From the NCBI RefSeq assembly GCF_000735525.1, contig NZ_JMPR01000021.1, positions 1-64,000 on the forward strand: DNA of 64,000 nt. The letters are read 5' to 3'. A program made the translations under genes and the position numbers. The stretch is from Tatumella ptyseos ATCC 33301 (GTDB lineage Bacteria > Pseudomonadota > Gammaproteobacteria > Enterobacterales > Enterobacteriaceae). The notes beneath the pieces are model-generated. The model ran no database searches, was not told where the DNA came from, and worked only from the letters and a program-made list of their open reading frames with translations. Position 1 is the first letter of the stretch. Every line of letters begins with the position of its first letter. Positions 18,403 to 30,402 of this stretch are shown one piece after another.

Positions 18403-18418
18403 TGGCACAAGGATTGCA
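18403..18418 (+). promoter_or_regulatory. Sigma-54 promoter of puuE
   Basis: TGGCACAAGGATTGCA matches the -24/-12 consensus (TGGCAC-N5-TTGCA) at every defined base. GG (18404-18405) and GC (18416-18417) are exactly 10 nt apart. The predicted start is near 18429, 47 bp before the puuE ATG. I found no convincing NtrC site upstream within the speG-puuE gap. Confidence 0.8.
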
Positions 18419-18475: not shown

Positions 18476-19429
18476 ATGATGAAAAACAACGATTGCCGGC
18501 AATATGGTCTGGCAGAACCTTATCCGCGCGACCTGAGAGGCTACGCCGGTACTCCGCCACAGGCAGCCTGGCCGGGCGGGGCCAGGATAGCGGTTCAGTT
18601 TGTCCTGAATTACGAAGAGGGTGCCGAGAACCATATCTGGCACGGCGATGCGGGATCAGAACAGTTCCTGTCCGATATTATTGGCGCGGCCAGTTATCCC
18701 TCTCAGCATATGTCGATGGATTCACTGTATGAATATGGCTCCCGGGCCGGGTTCTGGCGTATCCATGGGGAGTTTGTTAAGCGGGGCCTGCCACTGACGG
18801 TTTTCGGGGTGGCGATGGCGCTGGCCCGTCACCCTGAAATCGTCTCAGCCATAAAAGCGGCCGATTTTGACGTGGTCAGTCATGGCTGGCGGTGGATCCA
18901 CTATCAGGATATGTCGCCGGACCAGGAACGTCAGCATATGCAGCAGGCCATAGAGGTATTGACTGAGTTATTCGGTCAGCGGCCGACAGGCTGGTATACC
19001 GGACGTGACAGCCCGAACACCCGACGACTGCTGGTGGAACAAGGCGGCTTTCATTATGACAGCGATAATTACGGGGATGATTTACCTTTCTGGACCCCGG
19101 TCACGTGCAGCAGCGGAGAAACGCGGCAGCATCTGGTGATCCCTTATACCCTGGAATGCAATGACATGCGATTCTGCACGCCGCAGGGGTTTAATACCGC
19201 AGAGCACTTCTTCACCTATTTGCGGGACAGTTTCGATGTGCTGTATGAGGAAGGCGCGACCGCGCCTAAAATGATGTCGGTGGGTATGCACTGCCGTATT
19301 CTTGGCCGGCCCGGGCGCTTCCGCGCCCTGCAGAAGTTTCTTGATTACATCGGAGACTACCCGGAGGTCTGGGTCTGTACCCGTCAGCAGATCGCTGAGC
19401 ACTGGACGACTCATCACCCTGCACCTTAA
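18476..19429 (+). CDS. puuE: Allantoinase PuuE (polysaccharide deacetylase family)
   Basis: A metal-independent type of allantoinase from the polysaccharide-deacetylase superfamily, converting allantoin to allantoate in the cytoplasm. The protein has about 317 residues. Recognisable segments are the N-terminal YPRDLRGYAGTPPQAAWPGG, VQFVLNYEEGAENHI, SHGWRWIHYQDM, GWYTGRDSPNTRRLL and YDSDNYGDDLPFW. Two adjacent ATGs (18476, 18479) follow TCAGGAGAT; the frame is open 13 codons further upstream. The gene is alone on its strand, convergent with hpxZ and driven by a sigma-54 promoter. Klebsiella uses an unrelated allantoinase (HpxB) for this step. Confidence 0.9.
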   Translation: MMKNNDCRQYGLAEPYPRDLRGYAGTPPQAAWPGGARIAVQFVLNYEEGAENHIWHGDAGSEQFLSDIIGAASYPSQHMSMDSLYEYGSRAGFWRIHGEFVKRGLPLTVFGVAMALARHPEIVSAIKAADFDVVSHGWRWIHYQDMSPDQERQHMQQAIEVLTELFGQRPTGWYTGRDSPNTRRLLVEQGGFHYDSDNYGDDLPFWTPVTCSSGETRQHLVIPYTLECNDMRFCTPQGFNTAEHFFTYLRDSFDVLYEEGATAPKMMSVGMHCRILGRPGRFRALQKFLDYIGDYPEVWVCTRQQIAEHWTTHHPAP

Positions 19430-21444: not shown

Positions 21445-23031
21445 TCAGAAGCCGGCAGCACTGCCGTTACTGCGTGGGTCAGATGCACCTTCAAGCATGC
21501 CATTCACATGGCGGACAATGGCACCGGCATGGCCGGTGGCTTCACTGAAATCGCTGAGTAATTCGACGTCATGGCCCATTTTTTTCAGTGCTTCCACGGT
21601 GTCGGTACTGAAACGGCTTTCCAGTTTCAGAGACTCAGACGAATCTCCCCAGGTCCGGCCAAGCAGCCAGCGCGGTGCAGTAATGGATTGTTGTAAAGGC
21701 TGGTTCTGCAGGACATAACGGGTAAACAGGGTCGCCTGAGTTTGTGGCTGACCATCGCCGCCCATCGATCCGTAGACCATGACGCGGCCGTCCTTAAGGC
21801 GGACAGCGGCGGGGTTCAGGGTATGAAAGGGTTGTTTACCGGGCGCCAGGGTCAGCAGGTGATCCTTTTGCAGCGTAAAGGCGGCACCACGGTTCTGCCA
21901 CAGGATCCCGGTGTCAGGGATCACCACACCGCTGCCAAATTCGTGGTAAATGCTCTGGATAAAGGAAACGGCCATTCCGTCTTTATCGATAACTCCCATC
22001 CACACCGTATCCCCGGGATCGCGCTGCCCCGTATCTGAAGCGGCGTGCTGCAGGTCAATCGCCGAGGCTAAGCTGTCGAGTCTGTCGGCTGACAGCAGGT
22101 CTTGTGCTTCTGCCTGCATTTCCCGCGGGTCAGTCAGCCAGTTATCCCGTAGCGTAAATGCCTGCCGGGTGGCTTCAACGATACGATGAATGGTATCGAC
22201 TTCACTGGCTTCCGGCAGGCCGAGCCTGTCAGTGATACCGTTAATCGCCAGGGATACCAGCCCCTGCGTCGGCGGGGCCAGATTATACAGGGTGCCTGTG
22301 CTGTGGTTTAAGCGGAGCGGTGCTTTCTGTTTTGCATGGTGGGCTTGCAGATCACTTAAGGTGACCGGCATCCCCAGAGACTCCATTCCGCGGGCGATCC
22401 TGCGGGCCAGCGAGCCCCGGTAAAAGCTATCCAGCCCTTCCGAGGCCAGCGTTCTCAGGGTGTCTGCCAGCGCAGGCTGAGTAAAGCGGCTGCCGGCGTC
22501 GGGTGCTTGTCCCCCGGGAAGATAAATATCTGCAAATCCGGGCTGCCCCTGCAATTCCTGCTGCTTCGCGGCACTGGCTGCCGACTGAGATCCCGAGACC
22601 GGCATACCTGAAGCGGCGTAATGAATGGCGTCGTCCAGTAATTCAGCCACACTCGCCGGGGCATAGCCCAGCGTTTCCGAAAGTGTCAGGGCTTTCTGCC
22701 AGCCACTGACGGTGCCGGCGACCGTCAGGGCCGCTTTCGGCCCGCGGTAAGGAATGCGGTCCATTCCCTGATAGAAATCGTGATTTGCCAGGCTGCCTGC
22801 AGCACCGCTTGCATCAATGGTGATCGGTTCACCTTCCGGGGGCACAATCAGCCAGAAACTGTCGCCACCCAGACCATTCATATGCGGATAAACCACCGCG
22901 ATGGTGGCCGCGGCTGCGACCATCGCCTCAATGGCGTTGCCCCCTTTTCGAAGCACGGCCAGAGCACTTTCACTGGCCAGATGGTGCGGGGTCACCGCCA
23001 TACCGTTTGGCGCAATATTGCTTTGTATCAT
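21445..23031 (-). CDS. hpxW: HpxW, oxamate amidohydrolase (gamma-glutamyltranspeptidase family)
   Basis: An Ntn-hydrolase of about 528 residues that in Klebsiella hydrolyses oxamate to oxalate and ammonia. The proenzyme should cleave itself before the nucleophilic threonine of GDTVWMGVIDKDGMAVSF (near residue 360). Other family segments are ALAVLRKGGNAIEAMVAAA, GGDSFWLI and YGSMGGDGQPQTQ. There is no signal peptide, unlike periplasmic GGT. The start at 23031 (MIQSNIAPNG) has GAGGAAGAG; the frame is open 29 codons upstream. It is the first gene of hpxWXYZ, with a sigma-54 promoter 41 bp upstream, and is divergent from hpxU. Confidence 0.9.
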   Translation of the reverse strand: MIQSNIAPNGMAVTPHHLASESALAVLRKGGNAIEAMVAAAATIAVVYPHMNGLGGDSFWLIVPPEGEPITIDASGAAGSLANHDFYQGMDRIPYRGPKAALTVAGTVSGWQKALTLSETLGYAPASVAELLDDAIHYAASGMPVSGSQSAASAAKQQELQGQPGFADIYLPGGQAPDAGSRFTQPALADTLRTLASEGLDSFYRGSLARRIARGMESLGMPVTLSDLQAHHAKQKAPLRLNHSTGTLYNLAPPTQGLVSLAINGITDRLGLPEASEVDTIHRIVEATRQAFTLRDNWLTDPREMQAEAQDLLSADRLDSLASAIDLQHAASDTGQRDPGDTVWMGVIDKDGMAVSFIQSIYHEFGSGVVIPDTGILWQNRGAAFTLQKDHLLTLAPGKQPFHTLNPAAVRLKDGRVMVYGSMGGDGQPQTQATLFTRYVLQNQPLQQSITAPRWLLGRTWGDSSESLKLESRFSTDTVEALKKMGHDVELLSDFSEATGHAGAIVRHVNGMLEGASDPRSNGSAAGF

Positions 23032-23071
23032 CTCTTCCTCAGAACGGGTCTTACAGTCATACCGACTACCT

Positions 23072-23087
23072 AGCAATTTTTGTTCCG
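23072..23087 (-). promoter_or_regulatory. Sigma-54 promoter of hpxWXYZ
   Basis: On the minus strand CGGAACAAAAATTGCT matches TGGCAC-N5-TTGCW except at two positions of the -24 element. GG and GC are exactly 10 nt apart. The predicted start is near 23061, about 30 bp before the hpxW ATG. Confidence 0.7.
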
Positions 23088-23142
23088 CTTCTGGTTTTTT
23101 TTGGCAGAACAGTAACAATGGATCGAATTATGCTAGCTTCTG

Positions 23143-23160
23143 CTGTAACAAATGTTGCAG
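23143..23160. promoter_or_regulatory. Imperfect palindrome at the hpxU start: candidate HpxU operator
   Basis: CTGTAACA-AA-TGTTGCAG is an 8-2-8 inverted repeat with one mismatch, ending inside the hpxU ribosome-binding site. A repressor bound here would block hpxU (autoregulation) and sit about 55 bp upstream of the hpxW -24 element. The right half (AAATGTTGCA) also resembles an NtrC half-site, so its owner is uncertain. Confidence 0.4.
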
Positions 23161-23168
23161 GAGGGATG

Positions 23169-24008
23169 ATGAAACCACTGGACCAACGGCTGGAATGCCA
23201 TTACGACCAGCTTTCTCCTCAGGAGAAGCGGGTCGCTGATTTTGTGATCGATCATTTTGATGATGTGATCAGTTACAACAGTGCTGAACTGGCTCGTCTT
23301 AGCGGGGTCTCGAAAGCCACGGTCAGTCGCCTGTTTAAGCGTCTGGGATATGAAAAGTATAAAGATATGCACGATGAACTGCGTACTCTGCGCCAGACAG
23401 GTATGCCGTTAACCGATAACCGGGATGCGGTGCAGGGCAATACGCTGCTGGCCAGACATTATAAACAGGAAATGGCTAACCTGGCGCACTGGTCCGGCAC
23501 ACTGGATGCACAGCAGTTCACCCGCATCATTGACGCGCTAAGCCGTGCCCGTCGGGTCGCTATCTTTGGTCTGCGTAATGCCTATCCGGTGGCGATGCAC
23601 CTGCGGTTGCAGCTAATGCAGGTTCGCCGGCAGGTACAACTGTTACCGACACCGGGGCAAACATTGTCTGAAGAACTGGTCGACCTGGAGCCGGACGATC
23701 TGGTCGTGGTGGTGGCGTTCCGTCGGCGTCCGGCGATTATCCGGCCATTACTGGAACAGTTGCAGCGTCAGTCAGTGCCGGTCGTGCTGATCAGTGAGCC
23801 GAATGTGGGAGCTCTGCAAGGGCTGGTGGACTGGCATCTGGCGTGTCCTCTGGAAAGTGTGTCGGCGTTTGACAGTTACAGTGCGGCCATGAGTCTGGTG
23901 AATTTGCTGGCGAATGCCCTGCTGCATGAATTACTGATGAGCGGGCGTCAGCGCATCCATCAGATAGCCGATCTTTATCAGCAACTTGAGGAGCTGGAAC
24001 GTCGATGA
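23169..24008 (+). CDS. hpxU: HpxU, RpiR/MurR-family transcriptional repressor
   Basis: A local regulator of purine catabolism. The RpiR N-terminal HTH is clear (AELARLSGVSKATVSRLFKR, about 38-57). A sugar-isomerase (SIS) effector domain follows at about 120-250 (RVAIFGLRNAYPVAMHL). In Klebsiella an RpiR-type protein HpxU represses the allantoate operon and hpxWXYZ; both targets flank this gene here. Two in-frame ATGs (23166, 23169) follow AGGAGGG very closely; the second has the more usable spacing. The frame is open upstream to 23007, with another ATG at 23118. Confidence 0.85.
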   Translation: MKPLDQRLECHYDQLSPQEKRVADFVIDHFDDVISYNSAELARLSGVSKATVSRLFKRLGYEKYKDMHDELRTLRQTGMPLTDNRDAVQGNTLLARHYKQEMANLAHWSGTLDAQQFTRIIDALSRARRVAIFGLRNAYPVAMHLRLQLMQVRRQVQLLPTPGQTLSEELVDLEPDDLVVVVAFRRRPAIIRPLLEQLQRQSVPVVLISEPNVGALQGLVDWHLACPLESVSAFDSYSAAMSLVNLLANALLHELLMSGRQRIHQIADLYQQLEELERR

Positions 24009-24011
24009 CGG

Positions 24012-24059
24012 GGCACCATGCTGGTGCTTTGCATTATTATAGTGCGCAATTATTGCGCA
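24012..24059. promoter_or_regulatory. Two NtrC-like enhancer sites upstream of hpxF
   Basis: Site 1 at 24012-24028 is the near-perfect dyad GGCACCATGCTGGTGCT (consensus TGCAC-N7-GTGCA). Site 2 at 24043-24059 is TGCGCAATTATTGCGCA, a perfect 7-bp dyad that is a weaker match. Centres are about 31 bp apart (three helical turns) and lie at about -136 and -105 from the predicted sigma-54 start, very like the strong sites at glnA. Confidence 0.65.
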
Positions 24060-24129
24060 TTGATCTCCGCAGTCACCGGTAAGCCTTTTTAAATCTGCTG
24101 TTTTCTGACATTTCCCCGGAGTATGTGGT

Positions 24130-24145
24130 TGGCACATTAGTTGCA
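24130..24145 (+). promoter_or_regulatory. Sigma-54 promoter of the hpxFGHIJK-QT operon
   Basis: TGGCACATTAGTTGCA is a full consensus match (TGGCAC-N5-TTGCA), with GG at 24131-24132 and GC at 24143-24144. The predicted start is near 24156, 39 bp before the hpxF ATG. Confidence 0.85.
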
Positions 24146-24194
24146 ACAACTGAGTCTGAAGAATCTTTTGTTTCATAACAGCTCAGGGGAAAAT

Positions 24195-24980
24195 ATGAAA
24201 AAGTTATTGATGGTTTTCGCGGGAGTGGCCTTACTGGCAGCACAGAGCACCGCCGTACTCGCAGATCAATTGCAGGATATCCAGAAACGCGGGGTTCTGC
24301 GGGTGGCTGTCCCTCAGGATTTTCCTCCGTTTGGATCGGTCGGCACCGATCTCCAGCCCGAAGGGTATGACATTGATATGGCCGGGTATCTGGCCAAAAA
24401 GATGAAACTAAAGTTACAGCTGGTCCCGGTCAGTAGTGCTAACCGGGTCGCATACCTGCAAACGAATAAAGTCGACCTGGTCATTTCGAGTCTGGGGAAA
24501 AACGCAGAGCGTGAAAAAGTCATCGATTTCAGCCGCGCTTATGCCCCGTTTTTCCTGGGTGTTTTTGGTCCGAAAGGACAGCCACTGAAAGACCCGGCGG
24601 CACTGAGTGGTAAGACTATCGGCGTCACCCGCGGGGCTGTTGAAGATATGGTACTGACGGCGATTGCCCCTAAAGATGCCACTATCCAGCGTTATGAAGA
24701 CAACAATACCACGTTGTCTGCTTATCTCTCCGGTCAGGTTCAGTATGTGGCGACCGGCAACCTGGTCGTTGCGGCGATTAACCGTGAACATCCGTCAGCG
24801 GCACTGACCTCTCAGTTTACCCTGAAAGATTCTCCCTGCTTTATCGGTCTGAAAAAAGATGAACCGGCTCTGAAAAATGAGGTTAACACGCTCATTGGCG
24901 AAGGTATTAAAGACGGAACCCTGAATAAGATGTCTGAAACCTGGATGAAAGCCCCTCTGCCGGCAAGCCTGGGGAGCTAA
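24195..24980 (+). CDS. hpxF: ABC transporter periplasmic binding protein (polar amino-acid type)
   Basis: The solute receptor of the importer encoded in this operon. A 22-residue signal peptide ends AVLA|DQLQD. The rest (about 240 residues) is a SBP_bac_3 domain with RVAVPQDFPPFG, EGYDIDMAGYLAKKM and LVISSLGKNAEREKVIDFS. The ligand cannot be read from sequence. Operon context (first gene before two permeases, an ATPase and allantoate-degrading enzymes) suggests a purine-derived ureide or acid such as allantoate. The ATG at 24195 follows AGGGG; 18 open codons upstream are ignored. The symbol follows the six-gene hpxFGHIJK layout of Klebsiella and is less certain than the function. Confidence 0.8.
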   Translation: MKKLLMVFAGVALLAAQSTAVLADQLQDIQKRGVLRVAVPQDFPPFGSVGTDLQPEGYDIDMAGYLAKKMKLKLQLVPVSSANRVAYLQTNKVDLVISSLGKNAEREKVIDFSRAYAPFFLGVFGPKGQPLKDPAALSGKTIGVTRGAVEDMVLTAIAPKDATIQRYEDNNTTLSAYLSGQVQYVATGNLVVAAINREHPSAALTSQFTLKDSPCFIGLKKDEPALKNEVNTLIGEGIKDGTLNKMSETWMKAPLPASLGS

Positions 24981-24989
24981 GAGTCGTAT

Positions 24990-25658
24990 ATGACAGGACA
25001 TCTTGATTTTCCGGCTCTCTGGCCCTACCGGCAGGAATTGCTCTCCGGGCTGTGGGTCACTATTCAGCTGAGTGTGCTGGCGACCCTGGGGGGCGTGGGC
25101 CTGGGGATCCTCGGGGCGGCTATCCGCAGCGGTAAAACAACCCTGCTTAGCCGTCTGTGGGGGGGATACGTGGCGGTGATCCGCAATACCCCGTTTATGG
25201 TCCAGTTATTCTTTATTGTTTTCGGCCTGCCAAATATCGGGTTCCGTCTGACGGCCGGAGAAGCCGCATTGCTGACCATGATCATTAACCTCGGGGCATA
25301 CAGTACGGAAATTATTCGTGCAGGGATCCAGGTCACTCCGAAAGGACAATGGGAAGCCTGCCGGGTACTGGGCTTCACCCGGCTGCAGACCTTTTTACGG
25401 GTCATCCTGCCTCCCGCATTACAACGTATTTATCCGTCGCTGGTAGGGCAATGCATCATCGTGATGCTGGGGTCGTCGGTCGTTTCTCAGGTTTCTTATC
25501 AGGAGCTGACCTTCCAGAGCAGCCTTATTCAGTCGCGCACTTTCCTGAGTTTTGAGGTTTATCTGGTCACGACGGCCATTTATCTGTTGCTATCCATTGC
25601 CATGCGCCAGCTCCTGATGTTAATCGGCCGCCGCTGGCTGGGAGTCACCGCAAAATGA
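24990..25658 (+). CDS. hpxG: ABC transporter permease, His/Glu/Gln/Arg type (first)
   Basis: An inner-membrane subunit of 222 residues with about five helices. The typical amino-acid permease features are RNTPFMVQLFFIVFGLP near 62-78 and the ATPase-contact loop KGQWEACRVLGFTRLQTFLRV near 118-138, cited here by its ends KGQWEACRVLG and LQTFLRV. It pairs with the following permease to form the membrane channel. The stop overlaps the start of hpxH (ATGA). Confidence 0.82.
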   Translation: MTGHLDFPALWPYRQELLSGLWVTIQLSVLATLGGVGLGILGAAIRSGKTTLLSRLWGGYVAVIRNTPFMVQLFFIVFGLPNIGFRLTAGEAALLTMIINLGAYSTEIIRAGIQVTPKGQWEACRVLGFTRLQTFLRVILPPALQRIYPSLVGQCIIVMLGSSVVSQVSYQELTFQSSLIQSRTFLSFEVYLVTTAIYLLLSIAMRQLLMLIGRRWLGVTAK

Positions 25659-26311
25659 TGACATTTACTGACTGGGATATTGTCCGTAATTTACTGCTCG
25701 CCGGGCGCTGGACAATCCTGTTATCGCTGGTCGCTTTTTTTGGCGGCACGCTGACAACACTCCCTCTGTTGCTGATGCGCCTGAGCCGTTTCCGTTGCCT
25801 GCACCTGTTGGTACGTGCCTATTGCGGACTGTTCCAGGGCACCCCGCTGCTGATGCAGCTTTTCCTGGCGTTTTTTGGTGTGGCGTTATTCGGGATCGAT
25901 GTCTCGGCCTGGACGGCCGCGTCTGTGGCGCTGACCTTATACACCAGTGCGTATTTGCTGGATATCTGGTACGGGAGCATCCGCTCGCTGCCGAAAGGGC
26001 AGTGGGAAGCCTCCCGCTGTGTCGGACTCACTTTTACGCAAACGCTTATCCATGTTGTTGCCCCTCAGGCATTCCGCGTGGCCCTGGCACCGACCGTCGG
26101 GTTCGCCGTGCAGGCCATTAAAGGCACCGCGCTGGCTTCCATTATCGGCTTCGTCGAACTGACCAAAGCCGGCACCATGCTGACTAACGTGACTTTTGAG
26201 CCGTTCAAGGTCTTTGCTTTGGTAGCCCTGGGGTATTTTATTTTGTGTTATCCGCTGTCCCGTTACAGCCTCTATCTGGAGAAGAAATTCGATGCCTCTC
26301 ATCACCATTAA
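25655..26311 (+). CDS. hpxH: ABC transporter permease, His/Glu/Gln/Arg type (second)
   Basis: The second channel subunit, 218 residues, same fold as its neighbour: QGTPLLMQLFLAFFGV near 65-80, then the EAA-type loop GQWEASRCVGLTFTQTLIHVV. It overlaps the previous gene by 4 bp and the following ATPase gene by 20 bp, showing tight co-translation. Two consecutive ATGs (25655, 25658) could serve as start. Confidence 0.82.
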   Translation: MMTFTDWDIVRNLLLAGRWTILLSLVAFFGGTLTTLPLLLMRLSRFRCLHLLVRAYCGLFQGTPLLMQLFLAFFGVALFGIDVSAWTAASVALTLYTSAYLLDIWYGSIRSLPKGQWEASRCVGLTFTQTLIHVVAPQAFRVALAPTVGFAVQAIKGTALASIIGFVELTKAGTMLTNVTFEPFKVFALVALGYFILCYPLSRYSLYLEKKFDASHHH

Positions 26312-27023
26312 TCAGATGCAGAAATTCTACGGTGATAACCATGTTCTGAAAGGGATCGATCTTGATATCGATGCCGGTGAAGTGGTGTCTATCATCGGGC
26401 GTAGCGGTTCAGGAAAAAGTACCTTGTTGCGCTGTATTAACGGCCTTGAGAGCTATCAGGAAGGCAGTATTAAACTGGGCGGCATGACTATCACCTCCAG
26501 TGACAGTCAGGCCAAAACGATCAGCCAATCCATTGGCATGGTTTTCCAGAGCTTTAATCTGTTCCCCCATATGACAGCACTGGAAAATGTCATGCTGGCC
26601 CCGCGGCTGGTACTCAAAAAAAGTCGGGCAGAGAGCCGGGATCTGGCCGCCCGTATGCTGGAGAAAGTCGGGCTGGGAGAGCGACTGAACTATTCACCGG
26701 CCAGCCTTTCCGGCGGACAACAGCAGCGTGTTGCCATTGCCAGGGCACTGGCGATGCAACCGAAGGTATTGCTGTGTGACGAAATTACCTCTGCACTGGA
26801 CCCCGAGCTTGTCGGGGAGGTGTTGCGGGTACTGGAACAACTGGCTGCTGATGGCATGACCCTGATTCTGGTGACGCATGAAATGAATTTTGCGCGAGAG
26901 GTCGGGGATCGGGTGGTGTTTATGCATCAGGGGAAAGTCCGTGAACAGGGGGACAGCAAAACCTTCTTTACTCACCCGCAGACCGCAGAACTCAAACAGT
27001 TCATCTCTACGGTTCGTTTGTAA
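26292..27023 (+). CDS. hpxI: ABC transporter ATPase, polar amino-acid type
   Basis: The energising subunit, 243 residues, typical of GlnQ/HisP-like proteins. Walker A is GRSGSGKST (36-44), the Q-loop is [12 protein letters not shown], the signature is [16 protein letters not shown], Walker B is [12 protein letters not shown] and the H-loop is [12 protein letters not shown]. With the two permeases and the binding protein it completes a four-part importer. It starts 20 bp inside hpxH and is followed 23 bp later by hpxJ. Confidence 0.85.
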
Positions 27024-27046
27024 TCACTCTTTTTAAGGAACGCATT

Positions 27047-28294
27047 ATGGATCTCAGCCAGATTTCCTCTATCAATCCGCCCCAACGATTACTGATGGGC
27101 CCCGGTCCGATCAATGCCGATCCGCGGGTACTGCGGGCGATGTCCAGTCAACTGATCGGACAATATGATCCCGCCATGACCGGCTACATGAATGAGGTGA
27201 TGGCACTGTACCGCGGGGTCTTTTGTACCCAAAATCAGTGGACACTGCTGGTTAACGGGACCTCCCGTGCCGGAATTGAAGCGATTCTGTTATCCGCCAT
27301 TAAACCGGGCGACAAAGTGCTGGTCCCCGTGTTCGGGCGCTTCGGACACCTGTTATGTGAAATCGCACATCGCTGCCGTGCAGAAGTGCACACCATTGAC
27401 GTTCCATGGGGAGAGGTGTTCACGGCAGATCAGATTGAAGATGCCGTTCGCCGTATTAAACCGCGTCTGTTACTGACGGTACAGGGTGATACATCGACCA
27501 CGATGTTACAGCCGCTGGCGGAACTCGGTGAAATCTGCCGTCGGTATGGCGTGTTGTTCTATACAGATGCGACCGCCTCGCTGGGCGGAAATGCGCTGGA
27601 GACGGATGCCTGGGGACTGGATGCCGTATCGGCCGGGATGCAGAAATGCCTGGGCGGGCCTTCGGGCACGTCACCGGTCACCCTCAGCGCACAAATGACA
27701 GAGGTGATCAGACGACGCAGACGTGTTGAACAGGGGATCCGCACGGACGCTCACCAGCAGGGTGAGGATGAAATGATCTATTCCAACTATTTTGATCTGG
27801 GCATGATCATGGATTACTGGGGTGCGGAACGGTTAAACCACCATACGGAAGCGACCAGTGCATTATTTGCCGCCCGCGAATGTGCGCGCATCCTTCTGCA
27901 GGAAGGGATCGACGAGGGGATTGCCCGACATAAGCTGCATGGTGATGCGATGCTGCAGGGGATCCGGGCCATGGGGCTTACGGTCTTTGGCGATGTCCGT
28001 CATAAAATGAATAATGTGCTGGGCGTGATGATCCCTGCACAGGTCAATGGCGATCAGGTGCGTAGCATGATGCTGAACGACTTCGGGATCGAGATCGGCA
28101 CCTCATTCGGACCGTTACATGGCAAAGTCTGGCGTATCGGCACCATGGGCTATAACGCGCGTAAACAATGCGTCCTGCAAACCCTGACCGCTCTCGAAGC
28201 GGTACTGAATCGCCTCGGCTTTATCACCCGTCAGGGGGCTGCGATGCAGGCCGCGTGGGATCACTATCTGACGGAAGCACCTCATGCAGAATAA
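27047..28294 (+). CDS. hpxJ: (S)-ureidoglycine--glyoxylate aminotransferase
   Basis: A class-V PLP aminotransferase of 415 residues (PucG/HpxJ type). It transfers the amino group of ureidoglycine to glyoxylate, giving oxalurate and glycine. The PLP lysine is K200 in GMQKCLGGPSG. The motifs LLMGPGPINADPRVL and NGTSRAGIEA are typical of the alanine-glyoxylate transaminase group. The context directly before allantoate amidohydrolase, whose product chain yields ureidoglycine, fixes the substrate better than sequence alone. A generic alanine--glyoxylate transaminase is the alternative. AAGGAA precedes the ATG; the end overlaps hpxK by 11 bp. Confidence 0.88.
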   Translation: MDLSQISSINPPQRLLMGPGPINADPRVLRAMSSQLIGQYDPAMTGYMNEVMALYRGVFCTQNQWTLLVNGTSRAGIEAILLSAIKPGDKVLVPVFGRFGHLLCEIAHRCRAEVHTIDVPWGEVFTADQIEDAVRRIKPRLLLTVQGDTSTTMLQPLAELGEICRRYGVLFYTDATASLGGNALETDAWGLDAVSAGMQKCLGGPSGTSPVTLSAQMTEVIRRRRRVEQGIRTDAHQQGEDEMIYSNYFDLGMIMDYWGAERLNHHTEATSALFAARECARILLQEGIDEGIARHKLHGDAMLQGIRAMGLTVFGDVRHKMNNVLGVMIPAQVNGDQVRSMMLNDFGIEIGTSFGPLHGKVWRIGTMGYNARKQCVLQTLTALEAVLNRLGFITRQGAAMQAAWDHYLTEAPHAE

Positions 28295-29576
28295 AATGAG
28301 CGTCCGGCAGGCGCAACAGGCCGGGGAGCGGGCGATGGCCCGCTGTGATTCTCTGGCTGAGATCAGTGAAACCGAAGGACAACTGACCCGGGTGTATCTC
28401 TCGGCGGAGCATCTCCGTGCTAATCATCTGACCGGTCAGTGGATGAAAGAAGCGGGGATGGCGGTCTGGCAGGATGAGGTCGGGAATATCTGCGGGCGTT
28501 ATGAAGGGCAGACACCGGATGCCCCGGCAATCTTACTGGGATCCCATCTGGACAGCGTGCGTAATGCGGGAAAATACGACGGGCCGCTGGGGGTACTGAC
28601 GGCGATAGAAACCGTCAGCTGGCTGAATGAGCAGCAAATCCGTCTGCCGGTCGCCATTGAAATTATCGGTTTTGCCGATGAGGAAGGGACGCGTTTCGGG
28701 ATCACGCTGCTGGGTAGCAAAGGCATTACCGGACGCTGGCCTGATAGCTGGACGGCACAGCCGGACAGTGAAGGGATCACTGTCGCGCAGGCGATGCAGT
28801 CTGTCGGCCTGCAGGCGGAGACTATTGCACAGGCCACCCGACGCCGGGACGCCTTTATCGCCTATCTTGAGTTACATATCGAGCAGGGACCCTGTCTGGA
28901 AGAGGCCGGACTGGCACTGGGGGTGGTGACGGCGATCAACGGCGCACGTCGCCTGAACTGTTCCTTTACCGGGATGGCGGGCCATGCCGGCACCGTCCCG
29001 ATGACTCACCGGAAGGATGCTCTGGCCGCGGCGGCGGAGTGGATGGTCTTTATTGAACGGGTGACGTGTGAGGCCGATCCGTTATTAGTCGCAACGGTCG
29101 GGACCCTGACCTGTGAACCTGGAGCGGTGAATGTGATCCCGGGCGACGTCAGGCTTTCTCTGGATATCCGCGGGCCGGAAGATGGCCCGCTGGCAGAACT
29201 GCTGGCCACGCTGTTGCAGGAAGGTGAGCAGATCGCGGCGCGGCGGGGACTGTCATTCCGCGCAGAAGAGTATTATGGCATTCAGGCAACGACCTGCGAT
29301 CCGGCACTGCGTGATGCTTTCAGTGAAGCGGTCACTGAGATTCAGGGGCAGTCGCTCCTGCTGCCCAGCGGAGCCGGACACGACGCCATTGCTATTGCAG
29401 AGTGCTGGCCTGTGGCGATGTTGTTCGTCCGCTGTGCCGGGGGGATTAGTCATCATCCGGAGGAGTCGGTAACCACGGAGGATGTATCGCTGGCCATACA
29501 GGCGTATTTACAGGCTATTATTAAGGTGGCGGATTCGGCCATTAGCGGGAACTCACGTAATGCGGAGAACGTCTGA
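28284..29576 (+). CDS. hpxK: Allantoate amidohydrolase (M20 family)
   Basis: A zinc/manganese amidohydrolase of 430 residues that splits allantoate to ureidoglycine, ammonia and CO2. Metal ligands of the M20 core are visible: H88 in GSHLDSV, D99 in KYDGPLG, the E133-E134 pair in ADEEGTRF, H196-type residue in LELHIEQGP and the C-terminal SHHPEES. The dimerisation-domain segment GMAGHAGTVPMTHRKDA is present. The same family includes ureidopropionase and N-carbamoyl amino-acid hydrolases, but the hpx context favours allantoate. The start overlaps hpxJ; an ATG four codons later is possible. Its TGA overlaps the hpxQ start. Confidence 0.9.
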   Translation: MQNKMSVRQAQQAGERAMARCDSLAEISETEGQLTRVYLSAEHLRANHLTGQWMKEAGMAVWQDEVGNICGRYEGQTPDAPAILLGSHLDSVRNAGKYDGPLGVLTAIETVSWLNEQQIRLPVAIEIIGFADEEGTRFGITLLGSKGITGRWPDSWTAQPDSEGITVAQAMQSVGLQAETIAQATRRRDAFIAYLELHIEQGPCLEEAGLALGVVTAINGARRLNCSFTGMAGHAGTVPMTHRKDALAAAAEWMVFIERVTCEADPLLVATVGTLTCEPGAVNVIPGDVRLSLDIRGPEDGPLAELLATLLQEGEQIAARRGLSFRAEEYYGIQATTCDPALRDAFSEAVTEIQGQSLLLPSGAGHDAIAIAECWPVAMLFVRCAGGISHHPEESVTTEDVSLAIQAYLQAIIKVADSAISGNSRNAENV

Positions 29577-30070
29577 TGAATATTGAGCAGTTTAATCAGT
29601 TGTCGCCCTCCGAGGCGAGGGCGGCCATTGAAAGCTGTGTGGCGATCCCCTCCTGGCAACAGCAACTGGTGGCTGCCCGTCCTTTCCTGTCGGTACAACA
29701 GGCGCTGGACTATGCCGACGGATTATCCCGGCAGTGGCAGCAGACCGAATTAGCTCAGGCGTTCAGCGCTCACCCACGGATTGGCGAAAGAGCCACAGGT
29801 CAGCAGGCACATCAGCAGGCCTCCCGCAGTGAGCAGGCAGCGGTACTGACGGCAGATAGCCAGGTCAGGCAGGCGATGGCCGAGGGAAACCAGGCGTATG
29901 AAGCACGTTTTGGCCGTATTTTTCTGATCCGTGCCAAAGGACGGACGCCGCAGGATATTCTGGAGCAACTCCGCCGGCGTCTGCATAATGATGACAGTGA
30001 AGAGCTGGGGGAAACCCTGGCGCAATTACGTGAAATTACGTTATTGCGATTACAGGAGGTATTGTCATGA
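29576..30070 (+). CDS. hpxQ: 2-oxo-4-hydroxy-4-carboxy-5-ureidoimidazoline (OHCU) decarboxylase
   Basis: Converts OHCU to (S)-allantoin, the last step of ureide formation from urate. The protein has 164 residues and is all-helical. The catalytic histidine is H66 in AHPRIGE; the SRSEQAAV segment (about 83-90) supplies the conserved Glu-Gln pair, and FGRIFLIRAKGR closes the active site. The gene starts in the overlap TGATG with hpxK and overlaps hpxT by 4 bp. Confidence 0.92.
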   Translation: MNIEQFNQLSPSEARAAIESCVAIPSWQQQLVAARPFLSVQQALDYADGLSRQWQQTELAQAFSAHPRIGERATGQQAHQQASRSEQAAVLTADSQVRQAMAEGNQAYEARFGRIFLIRAKGRTPQDILEQLRRRLHNDDSEELGETLAQLREITLLRLQEVLS

Positions 30071-30402
30071 GTACCATCACCACACATATTCTGGATACGG
30101 CGCTGGGTAAACCTGCCCGTGACGTCCGCATTACGCTTGAGCAGCAATCGACAGAAGGCTGGGCTGAACTGGCGCAGGGTAAGACGGACGATGACGGGCG
30201 TCTGAAAAACCTGACACCGGAACCGGTGACTCCGGGGCATTACCGGCTGACCGCCGAAATCGGGGATTATTTTGCGATAGCCGGGCGGCAGTCGCTGTAT
30301 CTGACGGCACAGATTGATTTTGTGATCCCGGAAGCCGGCAGTCACTACCATCTGCCGTTTCTGATCACCCCCTGGTCATGGTCGACCTATCGGGGAAGTT
30401 AA
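30067..30402 (+). CDS. hpxT: 5-hydroxyisourate hydrolase (transthyretin-like)
   Basis: Hydrolyses 5-hydroxyisourate to OHCU. A 111-residue transthyretin-related protein that lacks an export signal and so is cytoplasmic. The family start TTHILDTALGKPARDV carries the first active-site histidine. YHLPFLITPWSWSTYRGS gives the diagnostic C-terminal YRGS. It is the last gene of the operon and converges on the omega-amidase gene. Confidence 0.95.
   Translation: MSTITTHILDTALGKPARDVRITLEQQSTEGWAELAQGKTDDDGRLKNLTPEPVTPGHYRLTAEIGDYFAIAGRQSLYLTAQIDFVIPEAGSHYHLPFLITPWSWSTYRGS

Follow-up and report, generated by a model that had tools for sequence, protein, structure and literature searches.

A probable conserved sigma-54 promoter with tandem NtrC-like sites and a candidate HpxU operator upstream of the allantoate operon hpxF-G-H-I-J-K-Q-T in Tatumella ptyseos

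The allantoate operon hpxF-G-H-I-J-K-Q-T in a 64,000-nucleotide stretch of Tatumella ptyseos ATCC 33301 (bases 1–64000 of one contig, in the following referred to as the window; whole genome 3.53 Mb) is probably controlled by a promoter with two inputs, activation by NtrC and sigma-54 on the one hand and a veto by the regulator HpxU exerted from the leader on the other. The conserved NtrC/sigma-54 promoter itself is probably genuine, and a repressor site in the leader is likely. That NtrC and sigma-54 act on the operon directly, in addition to repression by HpxU, had already been proposed in a first-pass annotation of this DNA and is still the best reading, considering the promoter, the dyad pair, the presence of RpoN and NtrC and the tandem at glnA. 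The HpxU repression, named but not placed in that annotation, can now be assigned to a candidate operator at 24161–24174.

Materials and Methods

For comparison, 87 upstream regions were collected from the window, 80 loci of relatives (the 80 best-ranking out of at least 556) and six further loci, 86 of these regions being distinct. Locus L103 was removed as a duplicate of L001, and L107 was kept out of the statistics (sigma-54 score of 9/11). Sites were scored by the consensus letters for sigma-54 (TGGCACN5TTGCW, 11 informative) and for NtrC sites. NtrC pairs were counted after excluding three regions with a sigma-54 score of 9 (n = 83), while column information refers to an alignment, on the sigma-54 element, of those 70 regions (out of 86) whose leaders are similarly long. 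Gaps between hpxU and hpxW were counted when a locus contained both genes and the match to hpxW included the gene start, which applies to 65 of 81 loci including the window. As the region sequences are related, the counts are not independent; values for the first region per genus-level record name are given as well.

Results

Locus and Regulators

The coordinates of all features are collected in Table 1. Names of hpx genes follow those used in Klebsiella. From hpxF to hpxI, the operon encodes an ABC binding protein, two permeases and an ATPase, all ABC genes scoring below the substrate-specific cut-offs of the family profiles, and from hpxJ to hpxT a class V aminotransferase, an allantoate amidohydrolase, an OHCU decarboxylase and a hydroxyisourate hydrolase. 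The genes hpxQ and hpxT, covering steps from urate to allantoin, come after hpxK within the same gene run (29576–30402). On the other side of the promoter region, hpxW, the product of which we take to be an oxamate amidohydrolase, and its companion genes are oriented opposite to hpxU. In profile searches of the genome, a single RpoN and a single NtrC exceeded the cut-off. Of the named organisms in the 80 best-ranking loci (out of at least 556), Tatumella morbirosei (L001) is closest, its HpxF being 86% identical, and the upstream region of the same-genus genome G004 is identical to that of L001.

Table 1. Positions of predicted regulatory elements and of genes at the hpx locus, numbered from the first base of the window.
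Feature	Position	Strand	Sequence	Remarks
Sigma-54 promoter before puuE	18403..18418	+	TGGCACAAGGATTGCA	11/11 in the window and in four congeners
puuE, allantoinase	18476..19429	+		TIGR03212 at 514 bits, above cut-off
hpxW, gamma-glutamyltransferase-like	21445..23031	-		TIGR00066 at 326.9 bits, under its cut-off of 357.85
Candidate sigma-54 promoter of hpxW	23072..23087	-	CGGAACAAAAATTGCT	9/11; distance to the NtrC pair about 0.95 kb
Degenerate candidate HpxU operator O2, hpxU leader	23145..23158	+	GTAACAAATGTTGC	Counterpart of GAAACRAAAGTTAC in relatives
hpxU, RpiR-family regulator	23166..24008 (start 23166 or 23169)	+		Pfam HTH_6 and SIS above cut-offs
Predicted NtrC site 1 (distal), centre about −136	24012..24028	+	GGCACCATGCTGGTGCT	Perfect 15-mer; kept across relatives
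Predicted NtrC site 2 (proximal), centre about −118	24030..24046	+	TGCATTATTATAGTGCG	18 bp from site 1; conserved partner
Second dyad of the first-pass annotation	24043..24059	+	TGCGCAATTATTGCGCA	Overlaps site 2; same geometry in L101
Sigma-54 promoter of hpxF	24130..24145	+	TGGCACATTAGTTGCA	11/11 consensus; expected start 24156
Candidate HpxU operator O1	24161..24174 (about +6 to +19)	+	GAATCTTTTGTTTC	Nearly invariant; two-copy specificity
Operon hpxF-G-H-I-J-K-Q-T	24195..30402	+		Eight closely spaced genes (operon by spacing); families by profile

Probable Sigma-54 Promoter of hpxF

The full-consensus −24/−12 element reported in the first-pass annotation is borne out, as TGGCACATTAGTTGCA shows all 11 informative letters in the GG-N10-GC arrangement. 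Full consensus matches amount to two in the window versus 0.15 expected, and to nine in the genome versus three for the reversed control. Upstream of hpxF, scores of 11, 10 and 9 are reached in 71, 12 and 3 of the 86 distinct regions, respectively, giving a proportion of 83/86 with at least 10/11 compared to about 1.6% of shuffles, and in 61 of them, window included, hpxF is preceded by the identical 16-mer. When only the first region per genus-level record name is considered, 25 of 27 score at least 10. In the 70 regions of similar leader length, the columns of the element carry 1.58–2.00 bits, and the 59 spacer columns upstream of it 0.02–0.44 bits, with one adjoining column at 0.81.

The module is not lost in the four other same-genus genomes possessing hpxF (G001, G003, G004, and G005), while the fifth, G002, does not show any hpxF match at all. 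Likewise, a simple scan of 23700–24500 did not reveal a sigma-70 candidate on the + strand, the alternative that had been raised in the first-pass annotation. There is little sign of an IHF site between enhancer and promoter, with best scores of at least 7/9 in 53% of regions versus 43% of shuffles.

Leader Element as Candidate HpxU Operator

Just 3' of the sigma-54 element, a conserved leader block, GAATCNNNNGTTTC, is present with columns of 1.0 to 2.0 bits (70 regions). The leader element at 24161–24174, proposed here as candidate HpxU operator, is found with at least 9/10 in 83 of 86 leaders versus 0.35% of shuffled leaders, and in 24 of 27 when counting the first region per genus-level record name. 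Its start is at +5/+6 in 70 of the 86 leaders (+6 in the window), at +28/+29 in ten, at −1 in four and at +3 in two. A matrix derived from the element also detects GTAACTTTYGTTTC-like sites in the gap between hpxU and hpxW, where 55 of 65 regions score higher than 95% of shuffles; the hpxU leader of the window is among the ten failing, its best value being 1.1 versus a threshold of 3.7.

At genome level, the motif TGAAACRAAAGWTWC, deduced from the hpxF and hpxU leaders, has exactly two copies in 8/8 chosen genomes and none in the reversed control, where only the absence of further matches is informative since the motif was built from these same leaders and the eight genomes were hand-picked. 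The two copies are separated by 1.02 to 1.09 kb and lie on opposite strands, and their coordinates fit the hpxU and hpxF leaders. In the genome of the window, matches to the leader element with up to three mismatches number 12 versus 16 for the reversed control, and only the hpxF copy is exact.

That 24161–24174 is bound by another regulator or represents an RNA element, rather than serving HpxU, is unlikely. In favor of another regulator, eight hpxF loci of split operons (see below) carry the leader element without hpxU in the same locus; however, these genomes still encode hpxU beside hpxW, and the restriction to two copies in each of the eight genomes searched, one per leader of hpxU and hpxF, argues against it. 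Moreover, locus L080, which does not contain hpxU, is devoid of the leader element, too. As for an RNA element, the orientation relative to transcription is opposite at the two leaders, as would be expected of a site acting in DNA rather than in RNA, and no RNA family was found at 23000–25000 when applying the Rfam gathering thresholds.

NtrC-Like Dyads and Their Spacing

Two dyads resembling NtrC sites, at 24012–24028 and 24043–24059, had been claimed for the region upstream of the promoter. The distal one indeed contains the perfect 15-mer GCACCANNNTGGTGC, which has just two exact occurrences in the genome, one of these being at 24012–24028. Taken alone, its loose form GCACN7GTGC is unremarkable in the window (one found versus 1.53 expected), and it is position and conservation that carry the weight. 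The second dyad, TGCGCAATTATTGCGCA, is present in the sequence as well, and with a start at 24156 the stated centres (−136 and −105, a distance of 31 bp) are correct, but it is not the conserved partner of the distal site. This role belongs to a third dyad, TGCATTATTATAGTGCG at 24030–24046, which had been overlooked. Tandem NtrC-like dyads at a distance of 18 or 19 bp are found in 71 of 83 regions versus 10 of 2490 shuffles (0.4%), whereas pairs at 31, 32 and 33 bp occur in 13, 7 and 1 of the 83, respectively; with the first region per genus-level record name, the 18/19-bp pair is present in 18/25 and the 31-bp pair in 2/25. In 12 of the 83 regions (L020, L027, L043, L045–L047, L054, L055, L065, L068, L074, and L078), the pair remains below threshold. 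The centre of the distal dyad varies between −128 and −252 relative to the start across regions, as is allowed for an enhancer.

The Pectobacterium loci L043, L045, L046, L054, and L055 possess a longer leader with two tandem operator-like elements and no NtrC pair at threshold. Judging from these letters, the hpxF promoter of these loci appears differently built.

With the sigma-54 promoter unchanged, the working enhancer could also consist of 24012–24028 and 24043–24059 in the 31-bp, glnA-like arrangement assumed in the first-pass annotation, but this is very unlikely. In its favor, 24043–24059 and 24030–24046 reach the same plain consensus score of 8/12, so that the two are set apart by conservation. 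In addition, both arms of the 24043–24059 dyad are unchanged in L101 although the DNA 3' of it has diverged, and the dyad may thus still matter there. However, part of a half-site is common to this dyad and site 2, and in the five distinct same-genus regions compared by eye (window, L101, L102, L001/L103, and L104) its 17-bp form is seen only in the window and L101, the latter three lacking this geometry. The 24043–24059 dyad is lineage-specific and may serve as a weak accessory site or form a hairpin in the RNA. Since the conserved partner sits 18 bp away from the distal site, the 31-bp pairing is not supported, and a conserved spacing of 31–33 bp, characteristic of a glnA-type enhancer, is not found in the hpxF regions.

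Split Operons and the Terminator Alternative

A natural experiment is provided by eight genomes in which the hpx operon is split. Their hpxF loci, all from the enteric set (L037, L038, L041, L047, L049, L059, L063, and L064) do not contain hpxU, and hpxU-hpxW is located elsewhere (L128–L135), with hpxU now followed by hpxJ. Upstream of hpxJ, a 19-bp NtrC pair and the identical sigma-54 16-mer are present in all eight, accompanied by the leader element, which is exact in seven and shows one change in L134. The hpxF half likewise bears the sigma-54 16-mer in 8/8 and the NtrC pair in 7/8, L047 being the one without it. The gene 5' of hpxF then has about 290 codons in all eight cases and was typed in L049 as the LysR-type yeiE. 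Conversely, in 8/8 genomes having hpxF beside hpxU, the approximately 260 bases after yeiE do not contain an NtrC site scoring at least 9, a pair, or a sigma-54 element scoring at least 10. Split genomes and empty yeiE 3' regions together show that the promoter module travels with the operon halves and not with the end of the upstream gene.

These findings also bear on the highly improbable case that the dyads are not an enhancer but mainly terminate hpxU or form hairpins at its 3' end. The distal dyad is positioned just 3' of the hpxU stop codon and is listed as terminator-like, and the stretch 24005–24045 is predicted to fold with −14.1 kcal/mol (z −2.27), extended to −25.3 kcal/mol (z −2.99) for 24005–24070 by a second hairpin at the 24043–24059 dyad. 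In split genomes, the hpxF pair is again found behind a stop codon. On the other hand, the stem is not followed by the U-run of an intrinsic terminator, the tail reading CATTATTATA, and 0.9 terminator-like hits are expected there by chance. Furthermore, two dyads at a fixed spacing and with NtrC letters argue against a terminator, as do split-genome arms like TGCACCAGTAACAGGCA, which would pair poorly yet keep TGCACC. The reading is further weakened by yeiE, which in 8/8 genomes does not have such a site when hpxF is not behind it.

Comparison With glnA

As at hpxF, the NtrC/sigma-54 promoter of glnA (glnALG) has NtrC dyads upstream of a GG-N10-GC element. In the same genome as the window, glnA (L092/L144, G000:C8:139083–139148) possesses three dyads with spacings of 33 and 18 bp, so that its sites 2 and 3 are arranged like the hpxF pair. 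In contrast to the latter, the two best glnA sites are 33 bp apart in this genome and 32 bp in E. coli, where identical scoring gave two strong sites at that distance. The hpxF pair and the glnA tandem of the same genome agree in 24 of 32 bases at equal spacing, and a pattern built from just these two sites does not match any third place in the genome within three mismatches. That another enhancer-binding protein mainly drives the sigma-54 promoter can hardly be assumed in view of this match to the genome's own glnA enhancer, even though four other frames match the NtrC model over the central domain.

In the glnA leader (L092), an inverted repeat, GTTTCATAACGGTTGAAAC, is located 3' of the sigma-54 site, with letters like the arms of the candidate HpxU operator but turned outward.

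Predicted Promoters of hpxW and puuE

In relatives, the candidate hpxW promoter mostly reads TGGAAC-N5-TTGCW, with 59 of 65 regions scoring 10/11 and six, among them the window, scoring 9, while at least 10 is reached in 0.23% of shuffles. A local NtrC pair between −260 and −60 of hpxW was found in none of the 65 regions. Single dyads of 8 or 9/12 occur before hpxW in 52/65, somewhat above the value of about 46% for shuffles; a score of 10 is not attained, and several of these dyads fall in one and the same coding stretch of hpxU. At the puuE promoter, the best NtrC dyad within 200 nt scores at most 7/12 in four of five regions and 9 in L125, without a convincing pair.

Distinctly unlikely, though worth stating, is a shared enhancer, by which the NtrC pair behind hpxU would serve both hpxF and the divergent hpxW (perhaps also puuE, 5.6 kb away) and would be cut off by an HpxU loop. 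For this, HpxU would have to bind the two operators about 1 kb apart that flank hpxU and the enhancer, thereby closing an insulating loop. If true, a bacterial enhancer would here be insulated naturally by a repressor loop, and three sigma-54 promoters sharing one repressor-flanked enhancer would offer a natural system for studying bacterial enhancer sharing and insulation. The split genomes do not prove that the enhancer serves hpxW, as hpxJ there has its own sigma-54 site directly behind the pair.

Discussion

According to the two-input promoter favored here, NtrC phosphorylated under nitrogen limitation would bind 24012–24028 and 24030–24046, just 3' of the hpxU stop codon, and loop to the RNA polymerase-sigma-54 complex at 24130–24145, resulting in transcription from about 24156 of eight genes that probably serve to take up and degrade allantoate and related ureides. 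HpxU sitting on 24161–24174 would block initiation or escape as long as it is not released by a metabolite of the pathway, and the repressor might bind its own leader as well. The comparison shows how well the elements are conserved, where they lie and how specific they are, and from this we infer the binding proteins, the start, the response to nitrogen, an inducer and an AND logic.

Guzman et al. reportedly described in 2013 an allantoate cluster of Klebsiella pneumoniae with the RpiR-type repressor HpxU, a system which, going by the title, resembles the present one in combining allantoate genes with this repressor. In 2011, Guzman et al. are said to have dealt with guaD and hpxSAB of K. pneumoniae, purine genes under NtrC or NAC, which differ in being another cluster with another specific regulator, HpxS.

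In Klebsiella oxytoca M5a1, hpxAB, hpxO and hpxWXYZ are reported to be strongly up-regulated in nitrogen-fixing versus nitrogen-replete cultures, the latter represented by one replicate, and the authors suggest NtrC and sigma-54 for these genes from promoter inspection, with data not shown (PMC8381380). In contrast to the present case, the hpxF operon is not named and sites are not given in the section of that paper on hpx genes. Taxon-specific expansions are described for the NtrC regulon in passages of another study (PMC5343134). Going by these parts of the two sources, NtrC control of these hpx genes is to be expected. The exact sites were not found in the literature searched, which was mostly without subscription journals and says little about what is in print. 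Subject to the 2013 work of Guzman et al., new here are the exact positions of the predicted sites, the correction of their spacing and a candidate for the operator.

Hence, an exact candidate operator is now supplied for HpxU. Promoter and NtrC-like pair are kept in most of the Enterobacterales regions compared, suggesting that in many Enterobacterales the use of ureides, a nitrogen-rich route, may have been placed directly under general nitrogen control.
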